DNA of 64,000 nucleotides, from assembly GCF_031179385.1 (NCBI RefSeq), contig NZ_JAPSHV010000001.1, positions 1 to 64,000 on the forward strand, in the 5' to 3' direction. The stretch is from Arthrobacter sp. Lineage in GTDB: Bacteria; Actinomycetota; Actinomycetes; Actinomycetales; Micrococcaceae. The notes below the pieces were generated by a model. The model did no database searches. It was not told where the DNA came from and saw nothing but the letters and a program-made list of their open reading frames with translations. A program made the translations under genes and the position numbers. This document shows positions 582-18,258 of the stretch, piece after piece (the stretch's first letter is position 1; the number at the start of each line of letters is the position of its first letter).

Positions 582-3395
582 TTACTGGTCGAGGCTGCGT
601 TCCTCGATAAGCCGTCCGTTGAGGATACGTTCGATGGCCTGCCGGCCGACCAGTCCGGATTCCTCGATGGTTTCATCATCTGCGCTGGGTATGTCCTCGA
701 CGTACTTCAAGTCTACGGCGCCCGTTACAGGCTGCGGCTTGGGTTTGGCTGCCTCCGCCCGAGCGGCTTCATCGAGCAGCTGTTGGTAGCGGCTGGGGCG
801 GGACGGCGGTTCCTCATCGAACGAAGGTTCCTGAGGACCGGGGTCATCAGGGTCGCGGGGCGGTTCTGCCGGCGTGAAGGAAGGGACGTCATTGGGGTTG
901 CGCCGTCCGGCAGGGGGCTCGGGGGGTGCGGGCTGTGCAGCTGCTGTGTGGACGGGTGCCGGCGGAGTGGGTGGTTGCTGGGCAGGCGCCGGCTGGAGGG
1001 GCGCTTGTTGCGCGAGGGCATACGCGGTTACCTGCTGCGCGGAAACGTGCCGGAGGGTCTGCTCCGGGGGCATCTGCGATGCGTCTGCCTTCCGCACGGG
1101 TGCCTGCTCCGTGCGCGCGTTACCGGTTGGTTCGATGCCCGCGGGCGCCTGCTGCGTCTGGTTCTGCTGGATTGTGGCGGGCGCAGCCGGCCGGGCAGAT
1201 TCTCCCCAGCCAGGGCGGGCTCCGGTTGTGGCCGCTGGCAGCCCCCAGGAGTCTTCGCCCGGGGAAGGTGTGCCGGCGCCGCTCGATGCAGGGCTGTTGG
1301 CGCCGGGTTGCCCCTGCGCCTCTGCCGGCTGATTCCGGCTAGTAAGTGCTTTTGGGTCGGGTTCACCCGCTGCCGCGGCGCCGTCATGGATGGCTTCGAT
1401 GCTGCAGTTCAACCCAAGCACCTTGTTGATGGCCTGCTTCAGGTTGTCGCTGTGCTGACCGCGTTGGAACCCGAGCGCATTGCCCTGTGACGCAAACGCC
1501 AGGGTGAGCTGATTGTCGCTGAAGGAGCGCGGCTTTGCATCGGTGTTGACGTTCAACCACGTGCTGCGCTTGATCCGGGCGAGCTCGTCCATGATCTCCG
1601 GCCAGGCCCTGCGAATCATCTCTATCTGACCCGAACCCTGGGCCGGAGCGGATTGACCCGACGGACGCTGCGCGGCGGAGGCGGCCGAACGCTGCTCGGC
1701 GGGGGCGGCCGGACGCTGCTCAACCGGACGATGCTCAACCGGACGATGCTCCGACTGGGGCTGCTCAACCGGACGACGCTCCATCGGGGGCTGCTCCGAC
1801 TGGGGCTGCTCGGACTGAGGCTGCTCAGCCTTGGGCTGCTGGGCGCCTGGCGCTGCGGCTGAACGGGGTTCGGTGCTCTGCTGGTCCCACGGATCCGAAG
1901 GTTCGGGAGGCATGCCCCATCCGCCGCCCCAGTCGGCAGCACCGGGTTCCTGCGCAGGCTCCGTGGCGCGCTCGAGTTTCTCGGCCGGAGCCGGAGCCTG
2001 CTGTGGTTTTGAGTCGGCAGGAACCTGCGGGCCCGACGGCTGCATTTCCTGGGCGGCCGCTGCAGGGGTTGCAGATGCAGGGGCAGCAGCCTGTGTTTGA
2101 CGCTGTGCCGACGCAGGTACTTGTGCCTGTGCCGACGCAGGCACCTGTGCGGCAGCGGCCGGAGCGGAGGGCTGTGCGGTGCGCTCGGCAGTAGCTGGGG
2201 GAGCCCCGGTACCGGCCTCAGGTAGGCCATCGGCGTAGCTTAGGCGGCGTTCGATGCGGTCGACCCTGGCCAGGGTGCCCTGCTCCGACTGGTCCGCAGC
2301 GGGCAGCAGGATGCGAGCGCAGAGCAGCTCGAGGTGCAATCGCGGAGAGGTGGCGCCGGTCATCTCGGTGAGCGCAGTATTGGTGATGTCAGCGGCGCGC
2401 GAGAGCTCCGCGCGTCCCAGTTGTTGAGCCTGGGTCCGCATGCGGTTCAGCTGATCGTCAGGTGTACCGCGCAGGATGGACGCCGCCGCATCAGGAACTG
2501 CGTTGACAATGATCAGGTCGCGGAACCGCTCGAGAAGGTCCTCGACGAACCGCCGCGGATCATGGCCCGTCTGGATGACCCGGTCAACAGCACCGAAAAC
2601 GGTAGCGGAATCATCGGCGGCAATGGCATCGACCACGTCGTCGAGCAGCGAGGCATGCGTGTAGCCCAGCAGCGACACCGCGAGTTCGTAGTCAAGGCCG
2701 GAGGTTCCGGCACCGGCCATCAGCTGGTCCAGCACCGACAGGGAGTCGCGCACCGACCCGCCGCCTGCACGCACCACCAGGGACAGAACGCCGGGCGCCA
2801 CCGGGATGTTCTCCTGGTTGCACAGCAGCTCAAGGTAAGCCATCAGGGGTTCTGGGGGAACCAGCCGGAACGGGTAGTGGTGCGTGCGCGACCGGATGGT
2901 TCCGATCACCTTGTCCGGCTCCGTGGTCGCGAAGATGAACTTGATGTGTTCCGGGGGTTCTTCGACGATCTTCAGCAGCGCGTTGAAGCCGGCGCTGGTG
3001 ACCATGTGGGCCTCATCGATGATGAAGATCTTGTAGCGGTCACGGACCGGAGCGAAGGTGGCGCGCTCACGGAGATCACGGGCGTCATCGACGCCACCGT
3101 GGGATGCTGCGTCGATCTCGATGACATCCAGGCTGCCGGAGCCGTTCCGGGCCAGCTCAACACAGCTGTCGCAGGTGCCGCAGGGAACCGGTGTGGGGCC
3201 CTGCGCACAGTTGAGGCAGCGGGCCAGGATGCGGGCCGAGGTGGTCTTGCCGCAGCCGCGTGGACCGGAGAAAAGATAGGCGTGATTCACCCTGTTTTTG
3301 GAGATGGCCGTCATCAAAGGCTCGGTGACGTGCTCCTGGCCGATCACGTCGGAGAACGTCTCCGGACGGTACCGGCGGTAAAGGGCTGTACTCAC
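582..3395 (-). CDS. dnaX: DNA polymerase III subunit gamma/tau
   Basis: This is the clamp-loader ATPase of the replisome. The first ~370 residues carry the AAA+ module: Walker A GPRGCGKT (about 45-52), a four-Cys zinc module (CLNC...CGTC..C), Walker B IIDEAHM and the sensor region FIFATTEP. From about residue 390 the protein is a long Pro/Gln/Ala-rich region with short repeats (QPQSEQ, RPVEH/RPVEQ), broken by a folded segment (QIEMIRRAWPEIMDELARIKR...) that resembles the polymerase-binding part of tau. At 937 aa it is long for the family, mostly because of the low-complexity parts. The start is GTG; a TAGAGT -10 box sits 6 nt upstream, so the mRNA is probably leaderless and transcribed from inside the gluQ 3' end. 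Confidence 0.96.
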   Translation of the reverse strand: MSTALYRRYRPETFSDVIGQEHVTEPLMTAISKNRVNHAYLFSGPRGCGKTTSARILARCLNCAQGPTPVPCGTCDSCVELARNGSGSLDVIEIDAASHGGVDDARDLRERATFAPVRDRYKIFIIDEAHMVTSAGFNALLKIVEEPPEHIKFIFATTEPDKVIGTIRSRTHHYPFRLVPPEPLMAYLELLCNQENIPVAPGVLSLVVRAGGGSVRDSLSVLDQLMAGAGTSGLDYELAVSLLGYTHASLLDDVVDAIAADDSATVFGAVDRVIQTGHDPRRFVEDLLERFRDLIIVNAVPDAAASILRGTPDDQLNRMRTQAQQLGRAELSRAADITNTALTEMTGATSPRLHLELLCARILLPAADQSEQGTLARVDRIERRLSYADGLPEAGTGAPPATAERTAQPSAPAAAAQVPASAQAQVPASAQRQTQAAAPASATPAAAAQEMQPSGPQVPADSKPQQAPAPAEKLERATEPAQEPGAADWGGGWGMPPEPSDPWDQQSTEPRSAAAPGAQQPKAEQPQSEQPQSEQPPMERRPVEQPQSEHRPVEHRPVEQRPAAPAEQRSAASAAQRPSGQSAPAQGSGQIEMIRRAWPEIMDELARIKRSTWLNVNTDAKPRSFSDNQLTLAFASQGNALGFQRGQHSDNLKQAINKVLGLNCSIEAIHDGAAAAGEPDPKALTSRNQPAEAQGQPGANSPASSGAGTPSPGEDSWGLPAATTGARPGWGESARPAAPATIQQNQTQQAPAGIEPTGNARTEQAPVRKADASQMPPEQTLRHVSAQQVTAYALAQQAPLQPAPAQQPPTPPAPVHTAAAQPAPPEPPAGRRNPNDVPSFTPAEPPRDPDDPGPQEPSFDEEPPSRPSRYQQLLDEAARAEAAKPKPQPVTGAVDLKYVEDIPSADDETIEESGLVGRQAIERILNGRLIEERSLDQ
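1700..1835. repeat. Short tandem coding repeats in the dnaX linker
   Basis: Related 15-21 nt units (core GCTCAACCGGACGA) repeat here and encode PVEQ/PVEH/SEQP-type pentapeptides in the tau linker. They are exact enough to be prone to slippage. Confidence 0.7.
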
Positions 3396-7135: not shown

Positions 7136-7176
7136 GCCCGGCGATCAGCTAGCCCGGCGATCAGCTAGTCGCCGGG
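7136..7176. repeat. 16-bp tandem duplication forming a convergent terminator hairpin
   Basis: GCCCGGCGATCAGCTA occurs twice head-to-tail (7136-7151 and 7152-7167). The second copy pairs with the following bases as CCCGGCGA-N8-TCGCCGGG, a perfect 8-bp stem. It lies between the convergent desaturase and MpaB-like genes and includes the latter's stop codon. Confidence 0.75.
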
Positions 7177-8087
7177 TCCGGCGGGTGCTGCCCCTGCACC
7201 CGCCGGATCCGCCGAAGCGCTGCTGCCTCACTCGGTCCCTGCCTGCCCAGACCGAGCTTGATGGCTCCCAGCACCAGCAGGACAGCCGGCTTGACCGGCA
7301 ACGGTAAGGGCCCGATGTGCGGCAACGACAGGCCGAGCAGTTCCCGGTGCCGAGGGGTGAGCGTGGCCACCGCCCCGGCAAAAAGGATCCGGTAGCCCAG
7401 ACGCTGGGACCGCGGAAGCGGGGGTCGCTTGATGTAGGCCAGCGCGTCCTGGACCTGGTGGCTGGAAGCGAGCTCGCCGTCGTATGCGGAGAGCTGATCA
7501 CGCAGTTCAGCGACGCTGCGCGGCGGGTCAGTGACGCCCATCAGTTCTCCCGCGATCGCCCACTCCTTCACGTACTCGTCCGGTCCGCCGGGAAACTTCA
7601 GCCCGTACTCCCGGTGCGCGCTGAGGAACGCGTCAGTGAACGCCAGATGCACCCACCGCAGCAGATGAGGGTCGTTGGCGGCATAGGAACGCTCGACGCC
7701 GGCGGCGTCCACGTACGTGCCGGTCACCTTCTCGTGCAGGCGGCGTACCCAGTTTGAAGCGCTCTGCGCGGCGTCGGTGGACCCGTACGTGACGGTGAAG
7801 ATCCAGCGGATGGTGTTCGCGAGCCTGCCCAGCGGGTCCTCGCGGAAGTCGGAATGGGCATACACCCCCGCCATGGCACCCGGATGCAGCGCCTGAAGCA
7901 GGAGTGCACGGATGCCGCCCACCGTCGGAGTCATGGAGCTGTGAACCGACCAGACGGCGGAACCGGGATCGAAGTAGCCGGCGTCGTTCCCTTCCGCGAG
8001 TTCCTCTGTCCAGGCGGGCGGTTCGGCACCGGTGCCGGTGAAGGTGTTCTTGAGTTCAACCCGCAGGCGGGAGAGGGGTGACGCCAT
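7161..8087 (-). CDS. MpaB/DUF2236-family (latex-clearing-protein-like) heme oxygenase homologue
   Basis: Conserved family features are LLLQALHPGAMAGVYAHS near the N terminus, RWIFTVTYGS, and HLAFTDAFLSAHREYG in the middle, where family members place heme-binding and catalytic His/Asp/Arg residues. The ATG at 8087 (308 aa) is preferred over the 335-aa ORF because TGGAG lies a few nt upstream and the extension has no homology-like composition. Family members act on mycophenolate side chains or rubber-like isoprenoids, but most are uncharacterised, so the substrate is unknown. It is convergent with the desaturase and divergent from gpx. Confidence 0.82.
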   Translation of the reverse strand: MASPLSRLRVELKNTFTGTGAEPPAWTEELAEGNDAGYFDPGSAVWSVHSSMTPTVGGIRALLLQALHPGAMAGVYAHSDFREDPLGRLANTIRWIFTVTYGSTDAAQSASNWVRRLHEKVTGTYVDAAGVERSYAANDPHLLRWVHLAFTDAFLSAHREYGLKFPGGPDEYVKEWAIAGELMGVTDPPRSVAELRDQLSAYDGELASSHQVQDALAYIKRPPLPRSQRLGYRILFAGAVATLTPRHRELLGLSLPHIGPLPLPVKPAVLLVLGAIKLGLGRQGPSEAAALRRIRRVQGQHPPDPATS

Positions 8088-8187
8088 CGCTCCAGTATGC
8101 AGGTTCCTCCTGAACGTCCCATCCGGATGAGGGGCGGTCGACGAACTGCAATCGAGTACCAAAGACAACGACAGCCAAGGAGCACGA

Positions 8188-8682
8188 GTGTCCGCGCAGA
8201 AACTTCATGACATCCCACTGACCATGATCGACGGCACCGAGCGGACCTTCGGCGACTTTCAGGGCAAGACCGTCCTGGTGGTGAACGTCGCCTCGCAATG
8301 TGGTTTCACACCCCAGTACGCGGCGCTTGAGGAGCTCTACCGGAGGTATGCGGACCGCGGCTTCGTGGTGTTGGGCGTGCCCAGCAATCAGTTCATGGGG
8401 CAGGAACCCGGAACCGACGAGGACATCCAGGCATTCTGCTCCAGCACCTTCGACGTCACGTTCCCACTGACCCGGAAGACCGATGTCCGCGGCCGGGACC
8501 AGCACCCGCTCTATGCCGAGCTCACCAAGTTCAGGAACGGAGTGCTTCCGGGCCTGGTGAAGTGGAACTTCGAGAAGTTCCTGGTGAACGACGCCGGTAC
8601 CGTGGTTGCGCGGTTTGCCCCCACTGTCGAGCCTGACTCCGACGAAGTTGTGTCTGCGATCGAGAAGACTCTGAACGGCTAG
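8188..8682 (+). CDS. Glutathione peroxidase family (thioredoxin-type peroxidase)
   Basis: The 164-aa protein starts at GTG after CAAGGAGCAC. It has the peroxidatic Cys in VNVASQCGFTPQY, the Gln and Trp positions of the catalytic tetrad (WNFEKFLV), and FPLTRKTDVRG. It is Cys-based, not selenocysteine. Actinobacteria lack glutathione, so members of this family usually take electrons from thioredoxin or mycoredoxin. Its TAG stop shares the tetranucleotide CTAG with the stop of the convergent HAD gene. Confidence 0.92.
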   Translation: MSAQKLHDIPLTMIDGTERTFGDFQGKTVLVVNVASQCGFTPQYAALEELYRRYADRGFVVLGVPSNQFMGQEPGTDEDIQAFCSSTFDVTFPLTRKTDVRGRDQHPLYAELTKFRNGVLPGLVKWNFEKFLVNDAGTVVARFAPTVEPDSDEVVSAIEKTLNG

Positions 8683-9689
8683 ACGGCGGAAACGGCAGCC
8701 TCGGCGCAGCGCAGCAGGAAAGCGGCGCCCGCGTCGTCGTGGATGAGGTCACCCTCGGTGAGGACGGGGTAGGGCTTCTCCGGAATGCCGTCGGCGGGCC
8801 GGACGTCCACATGGGCGACGCTGTAGCCGTGCTCGTGCAGGTAGTCCGCCATGGCGTAGTCGGTGCGTGAATCGCCCACGGTGCGCCAGACATGCGGAAC
8901 AGCGCCGTCGATCAGGGTGAGGGCGCGCTCCGCGCCGAGGTCCTTGCCGACGCGCACCGATTCAATGTCCGTGGAAATGATGGTGGGGTCCACCCGGTAG
9001 TCGACGCTGTCGTCGCTGTCCGGAAGGTGGTGCGCCAGGCGGCACACGCCCATGTCGAAGTGCTGCATGATCTCAAGGACCGCGGCGTCGAACGGTCCCT
9101 GACGGTCGAGGTAGTCCTCGTTCTCCACATCGAGGCGCTGCTCGATTGACACCATGGCGCGCTTGGTCTCGTCAAAGAACATGTGGTCAGCGAACTTCTG
9201 CTCCACCAGCGTCCGCACCTCGTTCCCGAACTCCTGGGGCAGGGCCAGAGTCTGGTCGACCTGGACGGGCGTGGGGCCGTCGGAGTCGAAACTGAACCAG
9301 GTGGCGCCCTTCTCACAGATGGCGTGGAACCTGACGCCCTCCGGGATGCCCGCAGCCAGCATCGGCTTCATGACCTCTTCGCGGATGAAGTCATCAGACC
9401 GGCCCGTGTTGAAGATGACCGGCCAGCCGGCTGCCGCGAGGCGGATGAGGGCGTCGATGATCTCGAACCGGACGCTGCGCGAGACGGGGCTCGCAACCGG
9501 CCCGTCGACGTCGAGCAGCAGGCCCATAGGCGTGGGCATGGACGCGGAAGGAGGCACCGAAGAAGTCACTGCCCCAGTATCCGCGGAACCGGGGAAGGCA
9601 GCGAAATCCATGACGGCGAAATCGCCGGAACTGCTCGAGCAGGGTTTCTCCAAGGTCCTGGTCGGAAGATTGAAGCCTGCAGCATCCAT
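8679..9689 (-). CDS. HAD-superfamily hydrolase
   Basis: HAD motif I is GLLLDVDGPVASP, motif II is in FNTGRSDDF, and the C-terminal motif is VGDSRTDYAMADYLHEHG. The layout resembles sucrose/trehalose-phosphatase-like (type IIB) HADs, but the substrate is not evident. The ORF is 336 aa from 9689; family-like sequence begins near MPTPMGLLLD (about residue 51), and none of the candidate starts has a clear Shine-Dalgarno, so the true N terminus may be 26-50 residues further in. It ends at a CTAG shared with gpx. Confidence 0.8.
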   Translation of the reverse strand: MDAAGFNLPTRTLEKPCSSSSGDFAVMDFAAFPGSADTGAVTSSVPPSASMPTPMGLLLDVDGPVASPVSRSVRFEIIDALIRLAAAGWPVIFNTGRSDDFIREEVMKPMLAAGIPEGVRFHAICEKGATWFSFDSDGPTPVQVDQTLALPQEFGNEVRTLVEQKFADHMFFDETKRAMVSIEQRLDVENEDYLDRQGPFDAAVLEIMQHFDMGVCRLAHHLPDSDDSVDYRVDPTIISTDIESVRVGKDLGAERALTLIDGAVPHVWRTVGDSRTDYAMADYLHEHGYSVAHVDVRPADGIPEKPYPVLTEGDLIHDDAGAAFLLRCAEAAVSAV

Positions 9690-9709
9690 GCACGTATTAA
9701 GGGCGAGTA

Positions 9710-10342
9710 ATGGCGATTGAAAAAATCGCGCTGGCCGAGCAGGGTGCGGCTGACCTGATGCCTGGGGAGGCAGCCGACTATCCCACCGGACTTACGCGGA
9801 GAGTTTTTGGCATTCTGATAGGCACCGGTGCTCTGGGCACCGCTGCGGGCTGGGGGATAGTCTCCGCCGCCGGTGGCACCGAGGAGGTTCCGACGTCGTT
9901 CGGGTCCGTCCGGATTGCAGCGGCTGAGCGGCAGGCACGGCTGGTAGGCGGGGTCGGAGGGCACGCAGCCGGTGGCCACTCCTCGAGCGGAGCCGCTCCG
10001 CCCGGCGCGGGGTCCCAACCGTTCAATCACACCTGGGGCGAACATCTCGCCGTCGAGCTGGACGTGCGCAACACCTCCGAGCGGAACGTCTTGTTCGCTC
10101 CCGGGCAGCTGCGCCTCGTGGTGACAAAGACGACGACGGTCACTAACCGGGCCGCCGACGTATCCAAGATCCTGCTGACTCCCGGTTCCCAACGCAGCCT
10201 GTGGATCAGCTTCCTGGTTCCAACCGGCGCCGCGGGTCTCGCAGCCCAGTTCACGGATCCCTGGGGCGGTCCGGCGCCGCTGGTGCTGGCCCTTCCCCGT
10301 ATTTCCCTTCGACCAGGCTCCCTGGAGGATCATCATGGCTGA
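9710..10342 (+). CDS. Small Tat-signal protein, first gene of the multicopper oxidase operon
   Basis: This 210-aa protein has an intact twin-arginine motif (TRRVFGILIGTG, residues 29-40) and a hydrophobic stretch, so it is either Tat-exported or Tat-anchored. A Gly/His linker (GGHAAGGHSSSG) follows. The rest (about 105-205) looks like one beta-sandwich (HLAVELDVRNTSERNVLFAPGQ...). I recognise no named family. It overlaps the next gene by 8 nt (GAG GAT CAT CAT GGC TGA), and the next gene's GGAGG is inside this ORF, so translation is coupled. A role as escort, assembly factor or third subunit of the downstream oxidases is inferred only from context. Confidence 0.75.
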   Translation: MAIEKIALAEQGAADLMPGEAADYPTGLTRRVFGILIGTGALGTAAGWGIVSAAGGTEEVPTSFGSVRIAAAERQARLVGGVGGHAAGGHSSSGAAPPGAGSQPFNHTWGEHLAVELDVRNTSERNVLFAPGQLRLVVTKTTTVTNRAADVSKILLTPGSQRSLWISFLVPTGAAGLAAQFTDPWGGPAPLVLALPRISLRPGSLEDHHG

Positions 10343-11723
10343 GCAGTTGCCTCCTGACATACTTGCCCGGGCGGACCTCCTCAAGCTCGGAGCAGCGGCC
10401 GGACTGGGCTTTGCAGCGCTGCCGCTGGTTCAGCCTGCCGCGCCCAGGCACCGAGTTGCCCGCACACCCGTCCCGCTGGCCCTAGCGCCGATCCCCGGCG
10501 TCCTGGACGTCTACATCAACGATGGCTATCTCAAGATGGTCGACGACACCCTCGTCTACCATCGCGGATTCGGCAGCCGGCCCACGGACATTGACGACGC
10601 GAGTCCCAGCCTCACCATGGACCCGACGATCATCACGGTGGGGGGCGATGTGATCCCCAGCCGTACCTACCCGTTGGAGAGGCCGCTCCCGCCGCGTGGC
10701 ACCCCGACTCCGGTGGGTCCGGACCCGGCCAACCCCGGGCAGTACTTCATCCGGCGGAACTACTGGGCGAGTTACTTCCCCCAACGCACCATCATCGCGG
10801 AGTTGGGAAGCACGGTTCGGATGCGGGTGCAGAACCGGCTGAACAAGCCGCACACCCTGACGGTCTTTGGAGCGGCACCCGGTGGTGCGGACTACACCAC
10901 CGGCGCTATCGGCCCCGATGCAGTGGCCATGATCGAATTCCCCTGTCCGCCCCCGGGTACGTACATCTTCGCTGATCCTACGAATGCGCCGGTCGAACGC
11001 GTGCTCGGACTCTTTGGGGTGCTTGTAGTGATGGACCCGGAGCACCAGTGGGACATCGCGGCGGACCGCGCAACCTTTGAGCGTCAGTGGCTGTGGATTT
11101 CCCACGCGGTGGAACCCCGCTGGGCGTCCATGGAGGCCGCGGGCCAGACCGTGAATGCCGCACAGACCAGGGCCGTACCGCGGTATTTCACCCTCAACGG
11201 GCGCAGCGGATTCGAGTCCCTCGGGATCACGTTCGACGAGGCCGTCAACCTTGCCACCGAGGAGGAAACCCTGATCTCCGGATATCCCCGACAGCTGGAC
11301 GTCCGTCAGTTCGGAGAGGGCACGGAAGCGGGCACGCTCAGAGGCGGACAACTGGTGCGGCTGGTCAATCCCGGAATCGTCTTCCACCAGATGCACTTCC
11401 ACGGCAACCACGTCTGGGTGGTCCGCCGAAACGGCGTGGACTGGCCGCGGCACGAGGGCTTCGTTGATGCAGACGGTCACGTGGTCCTGCAGCAGTGGGA
11501 GGACGTCGTCGAACTCGAACCCATGGACCGCAAAGACATCATTATCCCCATCAAGCGGCCGCCGGACGCCATTGATCCCGTGTGGTTCGCGCGTACCGGT
11601 GACTGGGTCTACCCCATGCACTGTCACGCCGAACCGTCCCAGACTGCTGCGGGCGGAATGTATCCGGGCGGTCTAGTTGCCCACTGGACCCTGAAGGGTC
11701 CCAACCCAGGAGGCAATCAGTGA
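10335..11723 (+). CDS. Multicopper oxidase-like protein A (copper motifs III/IV kept, I/II lost)
   Basis: The 462-aa protein has cupredoxin domains. The C-terminal copper motifs are present: HQMHFHGNH (351-359, motif III) and MHCHAEPSQTAAGGM (428-442, motif IV). The N-terminal counterparts are degenerate: where HWHG is expected it reads PHTLTVFG (172-179), and where YHSH is expected it reads GTYIFADP (208-215). In motif IV the usual second type-1 His after HCH is replaced (AEPS). The leader LARADLLKLGAAAGLG looks like a Tat signal that has lost its twin arginine. GGAGG-N6-ATG is inside the preceding gene. It probably works with the next protein. Confidence 0.85.
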   Translation: MAEQLPPDILARADLLKLGAAAGLGFAALPLVQPAAPRHRVARTPVPLALAPIPGVLDVYINDGYLKMVDDTLVYHRGFGSRPTDIDDASPSLTMDPTIITVGGDVIPSRTYPLERPLPPRGTPTPVGPDPANPGQYFIRRNYWASYFPQRTIIAELGSTVRMRVQNRLNKPHTLTVFGAAPGGADYTTGAIGPDAVAMIEFPCPPPGTYIFADPTNAPVERVLGLFGVLVVMDPEHQWDIAADRATFERQWLWISHAVEPRWASMEAAGQTVNAAQTRAVPRYFTLNGRSGFESLGITFDEAVNLATEEETLISGYPRQLDVRQFGEGTEAGTLRGGQLVRLVNPGIVFHQMHFHGNHVWVVRRNGVDWPRHEGFVDADGHVVLQQWEDVVELEPMDRKDIIIPIKRPPDAIDPVWFARTGDWVYPMHCHAEPSQTAAGGMYPGGLVAHWTLKGPNPGGNQ

Positions 11724-13219
11724 GTATCTTCAGCCGTAAGCGCTCGGTTCGCACGACCGAGAAACTGCAGAAGCTGGCCGAGCGCCGTCGTCGGGAGGAA
11801 GAACGACGGCGTCAGGAGGAGGCGCGCAAAGCCAAGCGGACGCGTAAACCGACAGCATCGCCCAAGCCGACAGCGACGGTGAAGCCCTCCGTGAAGCCGA
11901 GCGCGAGCGCCAAGCCTTCGGCATCTGCTTCAGCGAAGCCGACCGCGTCCGCAACAGCGACCGCAACCTCTACGGCGACCGCTACGGCGACCGAGACCGC
12001 GAGCGCTACTGCGACCGCTACAGCGACCGAAACCGCGACTGCCAGCGCTTCCGCGACTCCCTCGGCGACCGCTGTACCGACGGAGGCGCCTGACCCCGTC
12101 GTCGTACCGGAACCCCAACTGCACCACCGGTTCCAGAGCCAGGTGGACTTCAGCTCCGACCAGCTGGAGGTCTCCAACCCGGTGACGGAGTTCCTCCAGA
12201 CGGCTGCCGTCTCTGTTGACTTCGATTTTCACAGCCGCGACCTCGTCCTGGACGACGGCGCCGAATTCGAGATGTGGAGTTTCGAGGATGACCGGTTCGA
12301 GCGCGGGTTCCCCGGGCCTACGCTCAGGGTTCAGGAGGGGAAGATCTTCCACGCCACCGTCCATCCGAGCAAGGGCCCCCACACCATCCACTGGCATGGC
12401 ATGGAACCCGACCCCCGGAACGACGGCGTGGGCCACACCTCCTTCGAGGTCGACGGGCAATACACCTACCAGATGCAGCCGGAAGCAGGCCGTCCCGGTG
12501 ACCCCAACTATGGCGCCGCGGGGACGTACTTCTACCACTGCCACGTCAACACGCCGCTGCACGTCCAGATGGGCATGTTCGGCCCGCTGGTCATCGACCC
12601 CGTGGTCCACCCGGATTACCCCGTCAGTCCCGGCGCCCGCCGGGCGTTTGTGGACGGACCGGAGTACGACATTGATACAGAAGCGCTGTTCGCTCCCTAC
12701 TGCCTGGACCCGCGCTGGCATGAAATGAACCATGCTGACGGGCTCTCAGGCGAGGACGCAGGCCTCAACCGGTTCGAGCCGCGCCACTTCTACCTCCTGG
12801 GTGGTGAACTGGCCCGGCGCCCCGCAGGCAAGGAGATCGTCTGGAGTCTGTCCAGGCTTCGCGCCAACGTGGTGGGCGGTCCCAAGAAGCCGACTTTGTT
12901 GCGGACGGTGAACGCGAACTATCTGCCCAATCTGGTGACGTTTACCGACGCCGGAGGAGCGGAGGTGCCGATTGCCGAAATCATCTCGCATGACGGACGC
13001 CCCTTCCGGGACACCTCGGTGCCCAACGCGCCGGCTCCACCCTGCAGGGACGCAGAGTACCCGCTGACTACAAGCAGGCTCGCCTACGGGGCAGCTGAAC
13101 GCTATGACATGCTCCTTCTACCGCCCGCACCCGGCAGGTACTACCTGAACGTCCAGTGGGAAGACTGGATCACCGGCGCCGTGATCGCAAAACGAAGTGT
13201 GCCGATCGATGCGGCCTGA
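11720..13219 (+). CDS. Multicopper oxidase-like protein B (copper motifs I/II only)
   Basis: The start is GTG overlapping the previous stop (GTGA), with GGAGG-N6 upstream. Residues 1-45 are highly charged (ERRRREEERRRQEEARK), residues 44-120 are a Lys/Pro then Ala/Thr/Ser low-complexity linker, and the folded part begins near 135. Motif I HTIHWHG (221-227) and YFYHCHVNTPLHVQMGM (271-286) are intact; the latter has an HCH...H...M pattern as in two-domain oxidases with a type 1 site in domain 1. The C-terminal domain has no HxH-type motif. There is no recognisable signal peptide. Copper motifs are thus complementary to those of protein A. Confidence 0.85.
   Translation: MSIFSRKRSVRTTEKLQKLAERRRREEERRRQEEARKAKRTRKPTASPKPTATVKPSVKPSASAKPSASASAKPTASATATATSTATATATETASATATATATETATASASATPSATAVPTEAPDPVVVPEPQLHHRFQSQVDFSSDQLEVSNPVTEFLQTAAVSVDFDFHSRDLVLDDGAEFEMWSFEDDRFERGFPGPTLRVQEGKIFHATVHPSKGPHTIHWHGMEPDPRNDGVGHTSFEVDGQYTYQMQPEAGRPGDPNYGAAGTYFYHCHVNTPLHVQMGMFGPLVIDPVVHPDYPVSPGARRAFVDGPEYDIDTEALFAPYCLDPRWHEMNHADGLSGEDAGLNRFEPRHFYLLGGELARRPAGKEIVWSLSRLRANVVGGPKKPTLLRTVNANYLPNLVTFTDAGGAEVPIAEIISHDGRPFRDTSVPNAPAPPCRDAEYPLTTSRLAYGAAERYDMLLLPPAPGRYYLNVQWEDWITGAVIAKRSVPIDAA
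11850..12090. repeat. Low-complexity coding repeat (Ala/Thr/Ser/Pro linker)
   Basis: Short imperfect direct repeats (core GCGACCGCTACGGCGACCG) encode an A/T/S-rich linker of about 75 residues in multicopper oxidase B, likely a flexible wall- or surface-spanning segment. Confidence 0.6.
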
Positions 13220-13319
13220 TCGGGAACGGTTCCTCCAGCCGAGCGCTTGAAGCTATAACCATTTGGCGACGACGGCCGCGCCGCCGTGCCGTCACATTCC
13301 CTTGCGGCGATATCTTGCC

Positions 13320-13325
13320 TAGGCT
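13320..13325 (+). promoter_or_regulatory. -10 box (TAGGCT) of leaderless gene
   Basis: TAGGCT, then 6 nt, then GTG at 13332; no Shine-Dalgarno is present. Confidence 0.5.
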
Positions 13326-13331
13326 GTATTG

Positions 13332-13631
13332 GTGATCTTCAAAGCAGTGAGCGATGGACGCCCCTACCCCGACCATGGACACGTGACGCCCAAGGACTGG
13401 GCAAACGTGGCCCCACGCCAGGTTCGGCTGGACGAGCTCGTCACAACCAAGACCACCCTCGACCTTGAGGCGCTGCTGGCGGAAGACTCCACATTCTTCG
13501 GCGATCTGTTCCCGCACGTGGTGCAGTGGAACGACACGCTCTACCTTGAGGATGGCCTGCACCGCGCGGTTCGCACCGCGCTGCACCAGCGAACCATCCT
13601 GCACGCCCGCGTTCTGGTTATCGATGGCTAG
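13332..13631 (+). CDS. Conserved actinobacterial protein, ParB/sulfiredoxin-fold-like
   Basis: The 99-aa product begins MIFKAVSDGRPYPDHG. Its middle and end (VRLDELVTTKTTLDLEAL...YLEDGLHRAVRTALHQ) have the layout of the ParB/sulfiredoxin fold, in which VDGHHR-like segments bind nucleotide; here it reads LEDGLHR. I do not know its function. GTG is chosen over the TTG one codon upstream because a TAGGCT -10 lies 6 nt before it (leaderless start). Its stop overlaps the next ORF by 8 nt, so the two are coupled. Confidence 0.75.
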   Translation: MIFKAVSDGRPYPDHGHVTPKDWANVAPRQVRLDELVTTKTTLDLEALLAEDSTFFGDLFPHVVQWNDTLYLEDGLHRAVRTALHQRTILHARVLVIDG

Positions 13632-14298
13632 AACGCCCAAGCGGAAGCCCGTCCGGTCCAAGAGGAACCCGATCGAGTGGCACGGACACCGCATTGTTAC
13701 TGAAAACGACCTCGAAACGGTTTTCGCAGACGACGGCAACGTAGAGCGCCCGCACATCTACATGCGCAGGCTGCGCCACGGCATCGTTCTGGTGTTGCTC
13801 GTAGCGCTACTGGCCGCAGCAGTGTTCTTCGCGCTCGCCCTGGCGCGGGGAGACATCAAGCTCCCGGTGCCGGAGGCAACGCCCACCCCCGTCAGCGCCT
13901 GCCCCCTCGGGCCGTTCGACCTCGTCGATCCGGCGACGGTGACTGTGAACATCCTCAACAGCACCAGCATCGCCGGGCTCGCCGGTAATGCATCGGCGGC
14001 ACTGGAGGAACGCGGATTTGTCCTGGGCACCATCGGAAACCGCTCGGTCGCCCAGACCAACATGACCGCCATCATCGTGTCCGGGCCGGACGGGCACGCA
14101 CAGGCATTTACCCTGCAGCGCATCATCCCCGAGACGGTCTACGTCGAGGACGAACGCCCCGACGCTACGGTCGACGTCGTCCTTGGCTCTGAGTTCGAAT
14201 CGCTGGTGCCGGCGGAGGAAGTAAACGCGGAACCGGGTGGGCTCACGTGTGAGCTCGCCTCAACGGCCAGCGCCACGCCGTCGCCGTCCGCTCCCTGA
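13624..14298 (+). CDS. LytR C-terminal-domain membrane protein
   Basis: The 224-aa product has a basic cytosolic N terminus, one transmembrane helix (HGIVLVLLVALLAAAVFFALALA, about residues 49-71) and an extracellular LytR_C domain (TVTVNILNSTSIAGLAGNAS...). Stand-alone LytR_C proteins are common in actinobacteria; the domain also ends LytR-CpsA-Psr cell-wall ligases, so a cell-envelope role is likely, though no catalytic domain is present. The ATG at 13624 is inside the end of the preceding gene; the longer ORF in the track is a frame extension through that gene. Confidence 0.85.
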   Translation: MARTPKRKPVRSKRNPIEWHGHRIVTENDLETVFADDGNVERPHIYMRRLRHGIVLVLLVALLAAAVFFALALARGDIKLPVPEATPTPVSACPLGPFDLVDPATVTVNILNSTSIAGLAGNASAALEERGFVLGTIGNRSVAQTNMTAIIVSGPDGHAQAFTLQRIIPETVYVEDERPDATVDVVLGSEFESLVPAEEVNAEPGGLTCELASTASATPSPSAP

Positions 14299-14336
14299 CG
14301 AACGCAGGCAAAAGAACGACGACGGCGACGGGCCGG

Positions 14337-15032
14337 CTAACAGCCGTCCGGTCCGCAGGCCTCGCCGTCGGGGGTTGCCGACATGGGGATCAGCGGGTGG
14401 CTTTCCTGCCAGGCCTGATCCAGCGCCTGTCGGAATAGTTCGGCGGGTTGCGCTCCGGAGATGCCGTACTTCCGGTCGATCACGAAGAATGGGACGCCGC
14501 TGATGCCCAGTGTCCGAGCCTCGTTGATCTCGTGCCGCACGTCCTCCGCGAATCCGTCGCCGGCGATGGTTTCGCGCACCGACTGCTCATCGATCCCCAA
14601 TTCCTTGCCGAGCATCACGAGGACTTCCACGTCCGAGGTGTCGAGCCCCTGCTCGAAGTGCGCCGAAAGAATCACTTCCTTGGCGTCGTTGCCCTTCCCG
14701 AGCGACTTGGCGAGGTGCAGGAACCGGTGCGCAGTGAAGCTGTTGCCGACCACGACGGCGTCGAAATCAAAGTTCACGCCGACGTCGGCCGCTGATGAGG
14801 TGAGCTGGTTCCACATCTGACGGACCTGCTCGGGTGCGATGCCCTTGCGCTCGGACAGGTACTGCTGCTCGGTGCCCTCATAGTGCTCGGGGAGACTGGG
14901 GTCCAACTGAAAGCTCTTCCACGTCACGTCGACGCTGTCCCGGTGCGGGAAATCGGCCAGGGCCTTCTCGAAGCGGCGCTTGCCCACAAAGCACCAGGGG
15001 CATTTCACATCGGACCAGATTTCAATATGCAT
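14337..15032 (-). CDS. DsbA-family (FrnE-like) oxidoreductase
   Basis: The 231-aa product begins MHIEIWSDVKCPWCFVGKRR, with the thioredoxin-fold active site CPWC near residue 12, a helical insertion, and the cis-Pro region GISGVPFFVIDRKYGISGAQP. There is no signal peptide, so it is cytosolic, as in FrnE and 2-hydroxychromene isomerase-like relatives. FrnE proteins act as disulfide oxidoreductases in stress responses. It ends with a Cys-containing tail (CGPDGC). The start at 15032 is fixed by homology; the upstream extension to 15383 lacks support and no clear Shine-Dalgarno was seen. Confidence 0.87.
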   Translation of the reverse strand: MHIEIWSDVKCPWCFVGKRRFEKALADFPHRDSVDVTWKSFQLDPSLPEHYEGTEQQYLSERKGIAPEQVRQMWNQLTSSAADVGVNFDFDAVVVGNSFTAHRFLHLAKSLGKGNDAKEVILSAHFEQGLDTSDVEVLVMLGKELGIDEQSVRETIAGDGFAEDVRHEINEARTLGISGVPFFVIDRKYGISGAQPAELFRQALDQAWQESHPLIPMSATPDGEACGPDGC

Positions 15033-15174
15033 ACCGTGGGCAACGGAACGACGGCGGTGCGCATTCCCGCTCACCGCCGTCATTTGCCTCACGTGTCCCA
15101 GCCCGCTCCGAGTCGGCAGAACACTCCCCGTTTGCACCCTCTTGGGGGCCCGTCCTGCCAAGGGAACGTGAAGA

Positions 15175-16791
15175 TTACCGCTGCAGGGCCGGTGCCGGAG
15201 CCTGCCTCGCGCAGAGGTGCCGGGTGTAGGCGGGCAGGGTGAGGAACTCAGGGAAGTCGTCACCGAGAGCCACCTTCTCGAACAGCCGGCGGGCGTCGTC
15301 GAACCGGTCATCATCGAAGCGTGGGAGCCGCTCGAACTCCTCCTCCAGCAGCTGCGAAACCCACTCCAGGGTGACGATTTCACCGGTGTCGGTCACGGCC
15401 TGGGCATGTACCCACTGCCAGATCTGCGATCGGGAGATTTCCGCGGTGGCGGCATCCTCCATCAGGTTCTTCAGCGTCACAGCACCGTTCCCGCGCAGCC
15501 AGGCCTCGAGGTAGCGGACTCCGACCTCCAGATTGGTGCGGATACCCGCTTCCGTAATGAGCCCCTGGGTGCCGGTGAGGTCGATCAGTGCGCGGTCATC
15601 GGGCACGACGTCGGTGCGTTGCCGGTCGAGCTGGTGGGGCAACTCGCCGAGCACGACGTCAAAGACAGCGCGGGCAACCGGAACCAGGTCCGGATGGGCT
15701 ACCCATGAGCCGTCGAAACCGTCGCCGGCCTCACGCACCTTGTCCGTGTGGACCTTCTCGAGCGCGACGGCGTTGACCGCCTCATCGCGACGGCTCGGTA
15801 TAAATGCCGACATGCCTCCGATCGCATGCGCACCCCGTCGGTGACAGGTGCGTACCAACTGCTCGGTGTAGGCGCGCATGAACGGCGCGGTCATGGTGAC
15901 CATGGTGCGGTCCGGCAGGACAAACCGGGGGCCGCGCAGCCTGAAGTTCTTGATGATCGAGAAGATGTAGTCCCATCGGCCCGCGTTCAACCCCGAGGAG
16001 TGTTCGCGCAGTTCGTAGAGGATTTCGTCCATCTCGAATGCCGCCGTGATCGTCTCAATCAGGACGGTGGCGCGGATGGTCCCGCGGGGAATGCCGAGCA
16101 GTTGCTGGGCGCGGACGAACACGTCGTTCCACAACCGCGCTTCGAGGTGGTTTTCGAGCTTGGGGAGGTAGAAGTACGGCCCCCGGCCCTGATCAATGAG
16201 CGTCCGCGCGTTGTGGAAGAAATGCAGGCCGAAGTCCGCGATGCCGCCGGAGAGTGGTTCGCCCTCAATCAGGATGTGCTGCTCGGGCAGGTGCCACCCG
16301 CGAGGACGCACGACGACGGTGGGGAGCGTCTCTCCGAGCCGGTACTCCTTGCCCTCCTCGGTGGTGAAGTCGATTCTGCGCCGCAGGGCGTCGTGGAGGT
16401 TCAACTGGCCGTTGATGACATTGGGCCAGGTGGGAGTCAACGAATCCTCGAGATCCGCCAGCCAGACGTTCGCCCCGGAGTTCAGGGCGTTGACAGTCAT
16501 CTTGCGGTCCACAGGGCCGGTGATTTCCACCCGCCGGTCCTCCAGACCGGGAGCCGGCGGCGCGACCTTCCAGCCGTCGTCGTTCCTGATGTGTGCGGTG
16601 TGGGGAAGGAAGCGGGGATCCTCGCCCTGGGCAATGCGGCTGCGTGCTTCGCGGCGGCGCTGCAGCAGCTCCTGACGGCGCGGTTCTGCGAAGTCATGCA
16701 GTTCACGGAGGAAGTCCAGCGCTTCGGCGGTAAGGATTTCATCCTGGCGGGGGATCGGTGGGGCGGTCAGTGTGATGCCGGTGGTGTTCAT
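15175..16791 (-). CDS. aceB: Malate synthase A
   Basis: Condenses glyoxylate and acetyl-CoA to malate, the second step of the glyoxylate bypass. The 538-aa product matches the plant/E. coli-type MSA: NSGANVWLADLEDSLTPTW with the metal and catalytic Asp/Glu region, VVRPRGWHLPE, and the signature HSSGLNAGRWDYIFS. The ATG at 16791 follows AGGAG at 9 nt; the upstream 30 residues of the longer ORF are not family-like. It lies downstream of aceA on the same strand, with a long inverted repeat between them. Confidence 0.95.
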   Translation of the reverse strand: MNTTGITLTAPPIPRQDEILTAEALDFLRELHDFAEPRRQELLQRRREARSRIAQGEDPRFLPHTAHIRNDDGWKVAPPAPGLEDRRVEITGPVDRKMTVNALNSGANVWLADLEDSLTPTWPNVINGQLNLHDALRRRIDFTTEEGKEYRLGETLPTVVVRPRGWHLPEQHILIEGEPLSGGIADFGLHFFHNARTLIDQGRGPYFYLPKLENHLEARLWNDVFVRAQQLLGIPRGTIRATVLIETITAAFEMDEILYELREHSSGLNAGRWDYIFSIIKNFRLRGPRFVLPDRTMVTMTAPFMRAYTEQLVRTCHRRGAHAIGGMSAFIPSRRDEAVNAVALEKVHTDKVREAGDGFDGSWVAHPDLVPVARAVFDVVLGELPHQLDRQRTDVVPDDRALIDLTGTQGLITEAGIRTNLEVGVRYLEAWLRGNGAVTLKNLMEDAATAEISRSQIWQWVHAQAVTDTGEIVTLEWVSQLLEEEFERLPRFDDDRFDDARRLFEKVALGDDFPEFLTLPAYTRHLCARQAPAPALQR

Positions 16792-16817
16792 GGTGATGCT
16801 CCTGGCTGAATGTCCAG

Positions 16818-16877
16818 ATCGAGTGGGCAGAAATGACCGCAGCGGGGCGCCTGGCTGGTCCTCAGCGCCCACTCGAT
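16818..16877 (-). terminator. Inverted repeat between aceA and aceB
   Basis: ATCGAGTGGGC (16818-16828) and GCCCACTCGAT (16867-16877) form a perfect 11-bp stem around a 38-nt GC-rich loop. It may terminate aceA or process/attenuate the aceA-aceB transcript. Confidence 0.55.
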
Positions 16878-16905
16878 GCAAAGGGAAAGGGAGGGGGAGG
16901 AGGGT

Positions 16906-18258
16906 TCAGGAGAACTGCTGGGTCTCGGTGGAGCCGGCCAGGGCAAGGGTGCTGCCGGTCGGGTTGAGGGCGCCGGCTACCTGATCGAAGTAGCCGGTGC
17001 CGACCTCCCGCTGATGCTTGGTGGCCGTGTAGCCGCGTTCTTCGGCGTCGAACTCGCGTTGCTGGAGGTCCACATAGGCGCTCATGCCGTCGGTGGCATA
17101 ACCGTGCGCCAGATCGAACATCGAGTAGTTCAGGGCGTGGAACCCGGCGAGGGTGATGAACTGGAAGGTGAAGCCCATGGCGCCGAGCTCGCGCTGGAAC
17201 GTCGCGATGGTGGCGTCGTCGAGGTGCTTGCGCCAGTTGAACGACGGGGAGCAGTTGTACGCAAGCATCTGATCAGGGAACTCGGCCTTGACCGCTTCGG
17301 CGAAGCGCCGCGCCAGCTCCAGATCAGGCGTGCCGGTCTCCATCCAGATCAGGTCCGCGTACGGAGCATACGCATGAGCGCGGGCGATACACGGCTCAAT
17401 GCCGTTGCGGACCTCGTAGAAACCCTCGGGAGTCCGTACTGGTTCCGATCCGGCCCGGATCAGGAACGGGCGGTCGCGCTCATCGACGTCCGAGGTGATC
17501 AGTGTGGCCGCTTCGGCATCCGTACGGGCCACAATCACCGAAGGGACGCCGGCGACGTCGGCCGCCAGCCTGGCCGCGTTCAGCGTGCGGACATGCTGCT
17601 GGGTGGGAATGAGGACCTTACCGCCGAGGTGGCCGCACTTCTTCTCCGAAGCCAGCTGGTCTTCCCAATGCACCCCGGATGCTCCTGCGGCGATCATGGA
17701 CTTCATCAGCTCGAAGGCGTTCAGCGGCCCGCCGAAGCCGGCTTCGGCGTCGGCCACAATCGGCACCAGCCAGTCTGTGAATTCCTCGCGACCGCTCAAA
17801 ACGCCTTCAGCCCACTCGATCTGGTCCGCCCGCTGCAGCGCGTTGTTAATGCGCCGAACCACCTGCGGGACCGAGTTCGCCGGGTAAAGGGACTGGTCCG
17901 GGTAGGTCTGGCCGGACAGGTTGGCGTCCGCTGCCACCTGCCAGCCGGACAGATAGATAGCCCTCAGCCCGGCCTTCACCTGCTGTACGGCCTGGTTGCC
18001 GGTCAGTGCGCCCAGAGCATGGGTGTACTCGCCGGTCCGGGCCTGGTCAGTGAGCTGCTGCCAGAGTTTTTCTGCTCCCCGGCGGGCGAGCGTGTGCTCC
18101 TCCTGCACGCTGCCGCGAAGGCGTACGACGTCGGCAGCAGAGTAGTCGCGCTGGATTCCTTGCCAGCGCGGATCGGCTGCCCACTCGAGTTCGAGGTCGC
18201 GGACTGCTTCCGTGTAGGCGTTGGTGTTGTCACCTGGGTGTGCGGCTTCCTGCGTCAT
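16906..18258 (-). CDS. aceA: Isocitrate lyase
   Basis: Cleaves isocitrate to glyoxylate and succinate, the first step of the glyoxylate bypass for growth on acetate or fatty acids. The 450-aa length is normal. The active-site signature is [14 protein letters not shown]; substrate and Mg2+ segments are visible ([48 protein letters not shown]). GGAAGGAC lies before the ATG. It is divergent from the RamB-type regulator, which in Corynebacterium controls aceA and aceB. Confidence 0.96.

Follow-up and report, generated by a model that had tools for sequence, protein, structure and literature searches.

Multicopper oxidases (MCOs) are known either as two-domain homotrimers or as monomers of three or six domains (PMC13151041). 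In the two-domain enzymes the trinuclear cluster (TNC) is common to two protomers, and type C among them carries its type 1 (T1) copper in the N-terminal domain (PMC13151041). Here, we analysed a stretch of 64,000 nucleotides from Arthrobacter sp. (contig NZ_JAPSHV010000001.1, positions 1 to 64,000; the window, meaning this whole stretch), which contains three consecutive open reading frames, C, A, and B, the latter two encoding MCO homologues with two cupredoxin domains each (D1 and D2, the first and second). Our preferred reading, which we hold with good confidence, is that A and B are subunits of a single MCO derived from type C, with the TNC located between A-D2 and B-D1; the subunit interface, the oxidase activity, the export, and a copper role of C are the parts of it that we infer. 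No description of a heteromeric MCO of this kind was found in the open-access literature searched, and one may exist elsewhere.

The argument starts from the copper ligands. Both A and B match Cu-oxidase_3 and Cu-oxidase_2 above the gathering score (Pfam) and thereby belong to the MCO superfamily; in A these matches fall on D1 and D2, respectively, but in B both cover D1 only. A T1 site and eight TNC histidines in one polypeptide, however, are found in neither: A holds four TNC His but lacks a T1 His, B holds the T1 site and the other four, and the full set is reached only by A and B together or by their fused homologues. Specifically, A-D2 keeps H354, H356, H429, and H431, and has T437 where the second T1 His would lie, while from A-D1 only H173 of motif I is left and nothing of the HCH/HSH motif. 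B-D1, in turn, possesses the complete T1 site (H221, C274, H281, and M286) next to H224, H226, H273, and H275, and both MCO motifs of B-D2 are gone (GRYYLNVQWE aligned against GRFIFHDHVD of the type-C enzyme 2zwn). The initial annotation had claimed that one set of copper motifs is divided between A and B, so that neither is complete alone. The motifs it quoted are present, and the division was confirmed by profile alignment, in which lost positions stand exactly opposite live ones: PHTLTV of A-D1 opposite HTIHWHG of B-D1, and GTYIFADPTNAPVERVLGLFG opposite GTYFYHCHVNTPLHVQMGMFG. Each of these His and Cys ligands is invariant in the 37 A and 37 B homologues scored, and because the kept residues do not vary, a chance loss of motifs was rejected. 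Invariant as well are three His between the domains of B (H334, H338, and H356, in the pattern DPRWH...H...RFEP.HF), which possibly form an extra metal or substrate site; the earlier statement that the C-terminal half of B lacks any His motif thus holds for the MCO motifs but not for this trio.

The same complementarity of retained and lost motifs recurs in a second phylum. The alphaproteobacterium Indioceanicola profundi carries two plasmids, each with A followed by B as adjacent genes (L048 and L051), with 27% identity for A and 35-39% for B. The A-D2 signature is invariant in Micrococcaceae, Herbiconiux, and both Indioceanicola A proteins, and the B-D1 signature is retained in both Indioceanicola B proteins.

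Furthermore, A and B occur together. A and B were each run against one set of 200 genomes from the family, and strong matches to either fell in an identical set of 25 (Fisher p about 2e-32, with kinship ignored); weak A matches alone (E 1e-4 to 1e-6) were seen in four others. An order-wide sample (n=297) yielded strong matches for A and for B in the same two genomes only, a phylum-wide sample (n=397) added no genome with A/B to G000 and G009, and no relatives were present in the viral contigs searched. The window genome encodes one A, one B, TatC, and one further Cu-oxidase_2 protein. In 39 of 44 A copies, B lies directly downstream on the same strand, and in 16 of these 39 cases both form a single open frame of 741-887 codons with a short linker between the halves (e.g., L020, L022, and L025). 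Fusion also occurs outside the family, in Herbiconiux (L047). Since relatives exist in which the two halves are fused, the pair is very probably one two-part enzyme. A B tree rooted with Indioceanicola unites 28 copies of the split form in the main split clade (support 99), to which the intact fused copies do not belong; this placement indicates that fusion or fission was rare and that the pairing is old. L021 and L049, which differ in arrangement (L049 is frameshifted), group with the fused copies. The split proteobacterial pair favours the split form as the older state, although it does not decide the matter. Co-occurrence had been proposed by the initial annotation as a check on a cluster built between different proteins, and its outcome, together with the A-first adjacency, the fusions, and the complementarity in two phyla, supports such a cluster at the level of sequence. 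The fusions themselves, the placement of T1 wholly in B, and the role proposed below for C go beyond what had been noted before.

With regard to the type of MCO, B-D1 is nearest to D1 of the solved type-C two-domain enzymes 3g5w and 2zwn, the HCH region of A-D2 (HCHAEPSQTAAGGMYPGG) is similar to HDHVDTHVTAGGKHPGG of 2zwn, and an A-like D2 from Paraburkholderia (see below) aligns with D2 of 2zwn, so that A and B are best read as a type-C enzyme. Judged on the pair, T1 sits in the N-terminal domain and none in the C-terminal domain, as in type C, whereas the two TNC halves, which each subunit of the homotrimer would hold, are divided between A and B. The nearest relative of A-D1 is domain 1 of the copper nitrite reductase NirK. 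Membership of the pair in the NirK family was rejected, as B keeps the HWH and HCH pairs and scores 34.8 against TIGR02376 (cut-off 296.3), and so was membership among six-domain MCOs of the MnxG type, as the fused forms span about 800 amino acids with four domains, T1 lying in domain 3.

We propose that the ancestor was a type-C two-domain MCO with T1 in D1 and with the TNC between D1 of one subunit and D2 of its neighbour. After a duplication, complementary loss would have left the D2 ligands in A and the D1 ligands in B. Because the two proteins lost opposite halves, the A-D2/B-D1 contact would be the one interface left productive, where alone the four His of A and the four of B could complete a full TNC. 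The T1 copper of B would accept the electrons, which would pass via C274 to the TNC, where O2 would be reduced.

The reading frames named in the initial annotation are all found at the same coordinates (Table 1), as are its overlapping GGAGG-N6-start junctions: GGAGG at 10324-10328 precedes the ATG of A at 10335, GGAGG at 11709-11713 precedes the GTG of B at 11720, and the stop/start overlaps amount to 8 nucleotides for C/A and 4 for A/B (GTGA). Such Shine-Dalgarno-coupled, overlapping genes should provide matched amounts of A and B. The operon is embedded in a conserved chromosomal neighbourhood (7161-18258) that is common to several Arthrobacter genomes and includes glutathione peroxidase, malate synthase, and isocitrate lyase-like genes.

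Export probably involves C. Nearly every split locus and most fused ones have a homologue of C immediately upstream of A. (S/T/N)RR ahead of a hydrophobic stretch is present in all 37 C copies, also where C precedes a fused A-B gene. Split-form A N-termini, by comparison, show a single Arg ahead of a K/R-x-G hydrophobic stretch and never RR (RADLLKLGAAAGLG, RWDFLRYGAAAGLG, and others), B N-termini have charged or Pro/Thr-rich arms and no hydrophobic signal, and the fused proteins, likewise without a hydrophobic signal, start almost at the first domain. In one lineage (L013, L041, and L014), A has a long acidic Glu/Thr-rich arm and B a long basic Lys/Arg/Glu/Ala arm, which could help pairing by charge. 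With RR on every C, a single Arg on A, and no signal on B or fused A-B, the pattern is that expected of hitchhiker export through the twin-arginine translocation (Tat) pathway, and C is probably the Tat pilot for both proteins, comparable to the proven three-part Tat hitchhiker PaoABC (PMC4273604). Folding and assembly of A and B would then take place in the cytoplasm, and Tat would export the complex by means of the C signal. In Indioceanicola, RR is present on A itself and B has no signal; the simple reading is that the proteobacterium has its Tat signal on A, and the actinobacteria have theirs on C. C matches DUF4352 with E=6.7e-5, slightly under the curated cut-off, and a His in its Gly/His-containing linker is conserved in 29 of 31 copies. 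This residue may bind copper, and C may thus also deliver the metal.

Table 1. Features of the C-A-B operon (window coordinates; T1, type 1 copper; TNC, trinuclear cluster; D1 and D2, first and second cupredoxin domain)
Feature	Coordinates	Strand	Description
Gene C	9710..10342	+	ATG start; Tat-signal protein with His-containing linker and immunoglobulin-like DUF4352-type domain; proposed Tat pilot / copper helper
Gene A	10335..11723	+	ATG start; two-cupredoxin MCO homologue; D1 dead, D2 with half of the TNC ligands
Gene B	11720..13219	+	GTG start; two-cupredoxin MCO homologue; D1 with T1 and half of the TNC, D2 dead
C twin-arginine motif TRRVFG	9794..9811	+	(S/T/N)RR in all 37 C homologues
A Tat-like signal region (ARADLLKLGAAAGLG...)	10362..10430	+	Split-form A N-termini; one Arg, twin-Arg lost
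A D1 degenerate motif I, PHTLTVFG	10848..10871	+	Aligned to HTIHWHG of B-D1
A D1 degenerate motif II/IV, GTYIFADP	10956..10979	+	Aligned to GTYFYHCHVN of B-D1
A D2 live motif H351-QM-H354-F-H356-GN-H359	11385..11411	+	TNC ligands H354, H356; invariant; analogue in D2 of 2zwn (type C) IHAMHSHGH
A D2 live motif H429-C430-H431	11619..11627	+	TNC ligands; invariant; T1 His missing downstream (AEPSQT)
B D1 motif H221-TI-H224-W-H226-G	12380..12400	+	His invariant; aligned to HTIHWHG of 2zwn and 3g5w
B D1 motif H273-C274-H275...H281...M286	12536..12577	+	T1 and TNC ligands; H273, C274, H275, H281 invariant; aligned to YHCHVNVNEHV..GM of 2zwn
B inter-domain region (DPRWHEMNHADGLSGEDAGLNRFEPRHF)	12719..12787	+	Invariant H334, H338, H356; H334 and H338 also in Indioceanicola

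Besides the standard arrangement, several variant loci were encountered. Three A copies without B or C (L042:5641-7224, L097:8985-10562, and L098:9226-10809) have intact ligands and lie beside copper-ATPase-like and Lgt-like genes. Plasmid pTC1 (L050:2417-2752 and about 2987-3272) bears a C-A pair without B, with degraded A/B remnants several kilobases off and mntH between them. Nramp (mntH-like) genes are close to four loci and give a genomic hint of Mn(II) oxidation; together with the copper-ATPase-like gene near solo A, they hint at a role in the oxidation of metals or in the handling of copper. A-B copies, fused or adjacent, that are broken by frameshifts or stops (L024, L049:7998-10345, G106:C270, and G035:C94) suggest that surplus copies are being turned over, unless the breaks are sequencing errors.

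Some observations weigh against a joint A-B enzyme exported with C. AlphaFold models were of low confidence, both for the fused Herbiconiux protein (mean predicted local distance difference test, pLDDT, of 47; shallow alignment of 15 rows) and for A alone (mean pLDDT 52; 18 rows, likewise shallow), in which A-D2 was worst and not resolved. Foldseek retrieved mainly cupredoxin folds with these low-confidence models, and the top match of the fused model (MnxG, 9bxa, at a template modelling score of 0.24) was not used as evidence. The open-access literature searched contained no experiment on any member of the A/B family. Moreover, no recognisable C stands beside four fused copies (L086, L087, L095, and L096, the last reaching the end of the examined region), and C is therefore not universal. 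A retains the Cys of its HCH motif despite the loss of the T1 His, so that A-D2 may hold something else as well. Finally, five A copies lack an adjacent B (two in G123; one each in G178, G165, and G063) and one B lacks A (G035). Homologues that occur alone with the same residues and are active had been named in the initial annotation as grounds for refutation; solo copies do exist, but all six are in genomes that also carry a full A-B pair.

The solo A copies, some of which lie beside a copper-ATPase-like gene, would also suit a view of A and B as separate copper proteins linked only by their operon, where B acts as a T1-type electron-transfer protein or NirK-like oligomer and A binds copper, with no common TNC. 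NirK-like proteins indeed function with T1 plus fewer ligands, and A-D1 has its closest relative in NirK; we nevertheless consider this view unlikely given the single-chain fusion, the perfect co-occurrence, and the exactly complementary 4+4 His, and given that both TNC pairs (HWH and HCH) are kept in B, where a T1-only or NirK-like protein would not need them. Conservation of the whole T1-to-TNC ligand path, with invariant His and Cys, is equally needless for a non-catalytic copper sink or chaperone at the cell surface, which makes such a role of the A-B complex very unlikely, even if the copper-handling surroundings of solo A copies and the conserved His-containing linker of C would be in line with it. 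Scarcely credible is an interpretation of A and B as decaying MCO copies or as pieces of one broken gene. Frameshifts do affect some fused copies (L024, L049, and G106:C270), but the split A and B possess their own Shine-Dalgarno-preceded starts, overlapping stops, full-length frames, and ligands invariant in dozens of species, and the split arrangement is found in a second phylum, too; a pseudogene status of A/B, largely refuted by this conservation, was rejected.

Returning to A and B as subunits of one oxidase, a more distant counterpart may exist in Burkholderiaceae. A Paraburkholderia plasmid operon (L107:4287-12930) encodes three proteins annotated as hypothetical, namely a B-like MCO half (motifs HTVHFHG and HCHITPPEHLQMGM), an A-like MCO half (HPFHEHGNH and WHSHNE, with HSH in place of HCH), and a giant third product (about 2700 amino acids) with cadherin/immunoglobulin repeats. 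The A-like half matches Indioceanicola A (E 1e-12 in a single comparison) and, weakly, also A of the window (E 2e-5), the B-like half matches window B in domain 1 (E 5e-10), and a homologue of the A-like half with 79% identity is present in Cupriavidus metallidurans (NC_007974, near 1343419). Possibly, this operon specifies a second heteromeric MCO. Tentatively, and with somewhat more doubt than conviction, we suggest that heteromeric MCOs constitute an overlooked class, in which homologous or parallel A/B pairs of Actinomycetota, Alphaproteobacteria, and Burkholderiaceae (in the last with a giant third gene) would form one TNC at the contact of different gene products, with a separate Tat pilot in Actinomycetota, and would represent intermediates between homotrimeric two-domain and single-chain six-domain enzymes.

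If our interpretation is correct, the pair would add a heteromeric class to the MCOs, i.e. a two-gene enzyme with a divided O2-reducing copper cluster and natural four-domain fusions, and would offer a test case for the transition from a homomer to an obligate heteromer. A further prediction is that a copper enzyme is exported as a three-part Tat hitchhiker. Annotation may discard such A/B proteins as incomplete oxidases.

Among described systems, Streptomyces tyrosinase with its caddie (MelC1/MelC2) resembles A/B with C in that a copper oxidase is accompanied by a small partner. The helper MelC1 carries the Tat signal and delivers copper. C, however, has no established relationship to MelC1, and the A/B enzyme is an MCO. 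In PaoABC and [NiFe] hydrogenase 2, both Tat hitchhikers (PMC4273604), the twin-arginine signal is found on one partner only, as on C with respect to A and B, but these are different enzymes, and the pilot C is itself not a catalytic homologue. The six-domain Mn oxidase MnxG (PMC3600357; structure 9bxa) harbours its TNC between domains 2 and 3, as is predicted likewise for fused A-B; yet it unites six domains in one chain with T1 in domain 2, in contrast to the four domains and T1 in domain 3 of the fused proteins. The closest likeness is to the type-C two-domain MCOs, the metagenomic laccase 2zwn and the Nitrosomonas blue copper oxidase 3g5w, which have T1 in domain 1 and share the HTIHWHG and HCH...H...M signature with B-D1, and whose D2 signature H..H.HG...H.H...GG.(H/Y)PGG is carried by the A-D2-type sequence. 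However, whereas each known type-C enzyme is encoded by one gene and forms a homotrimer in which every subunit contains both halves, A and B are two proteins, joined by nature into four-domain fusions in some of their relatives.

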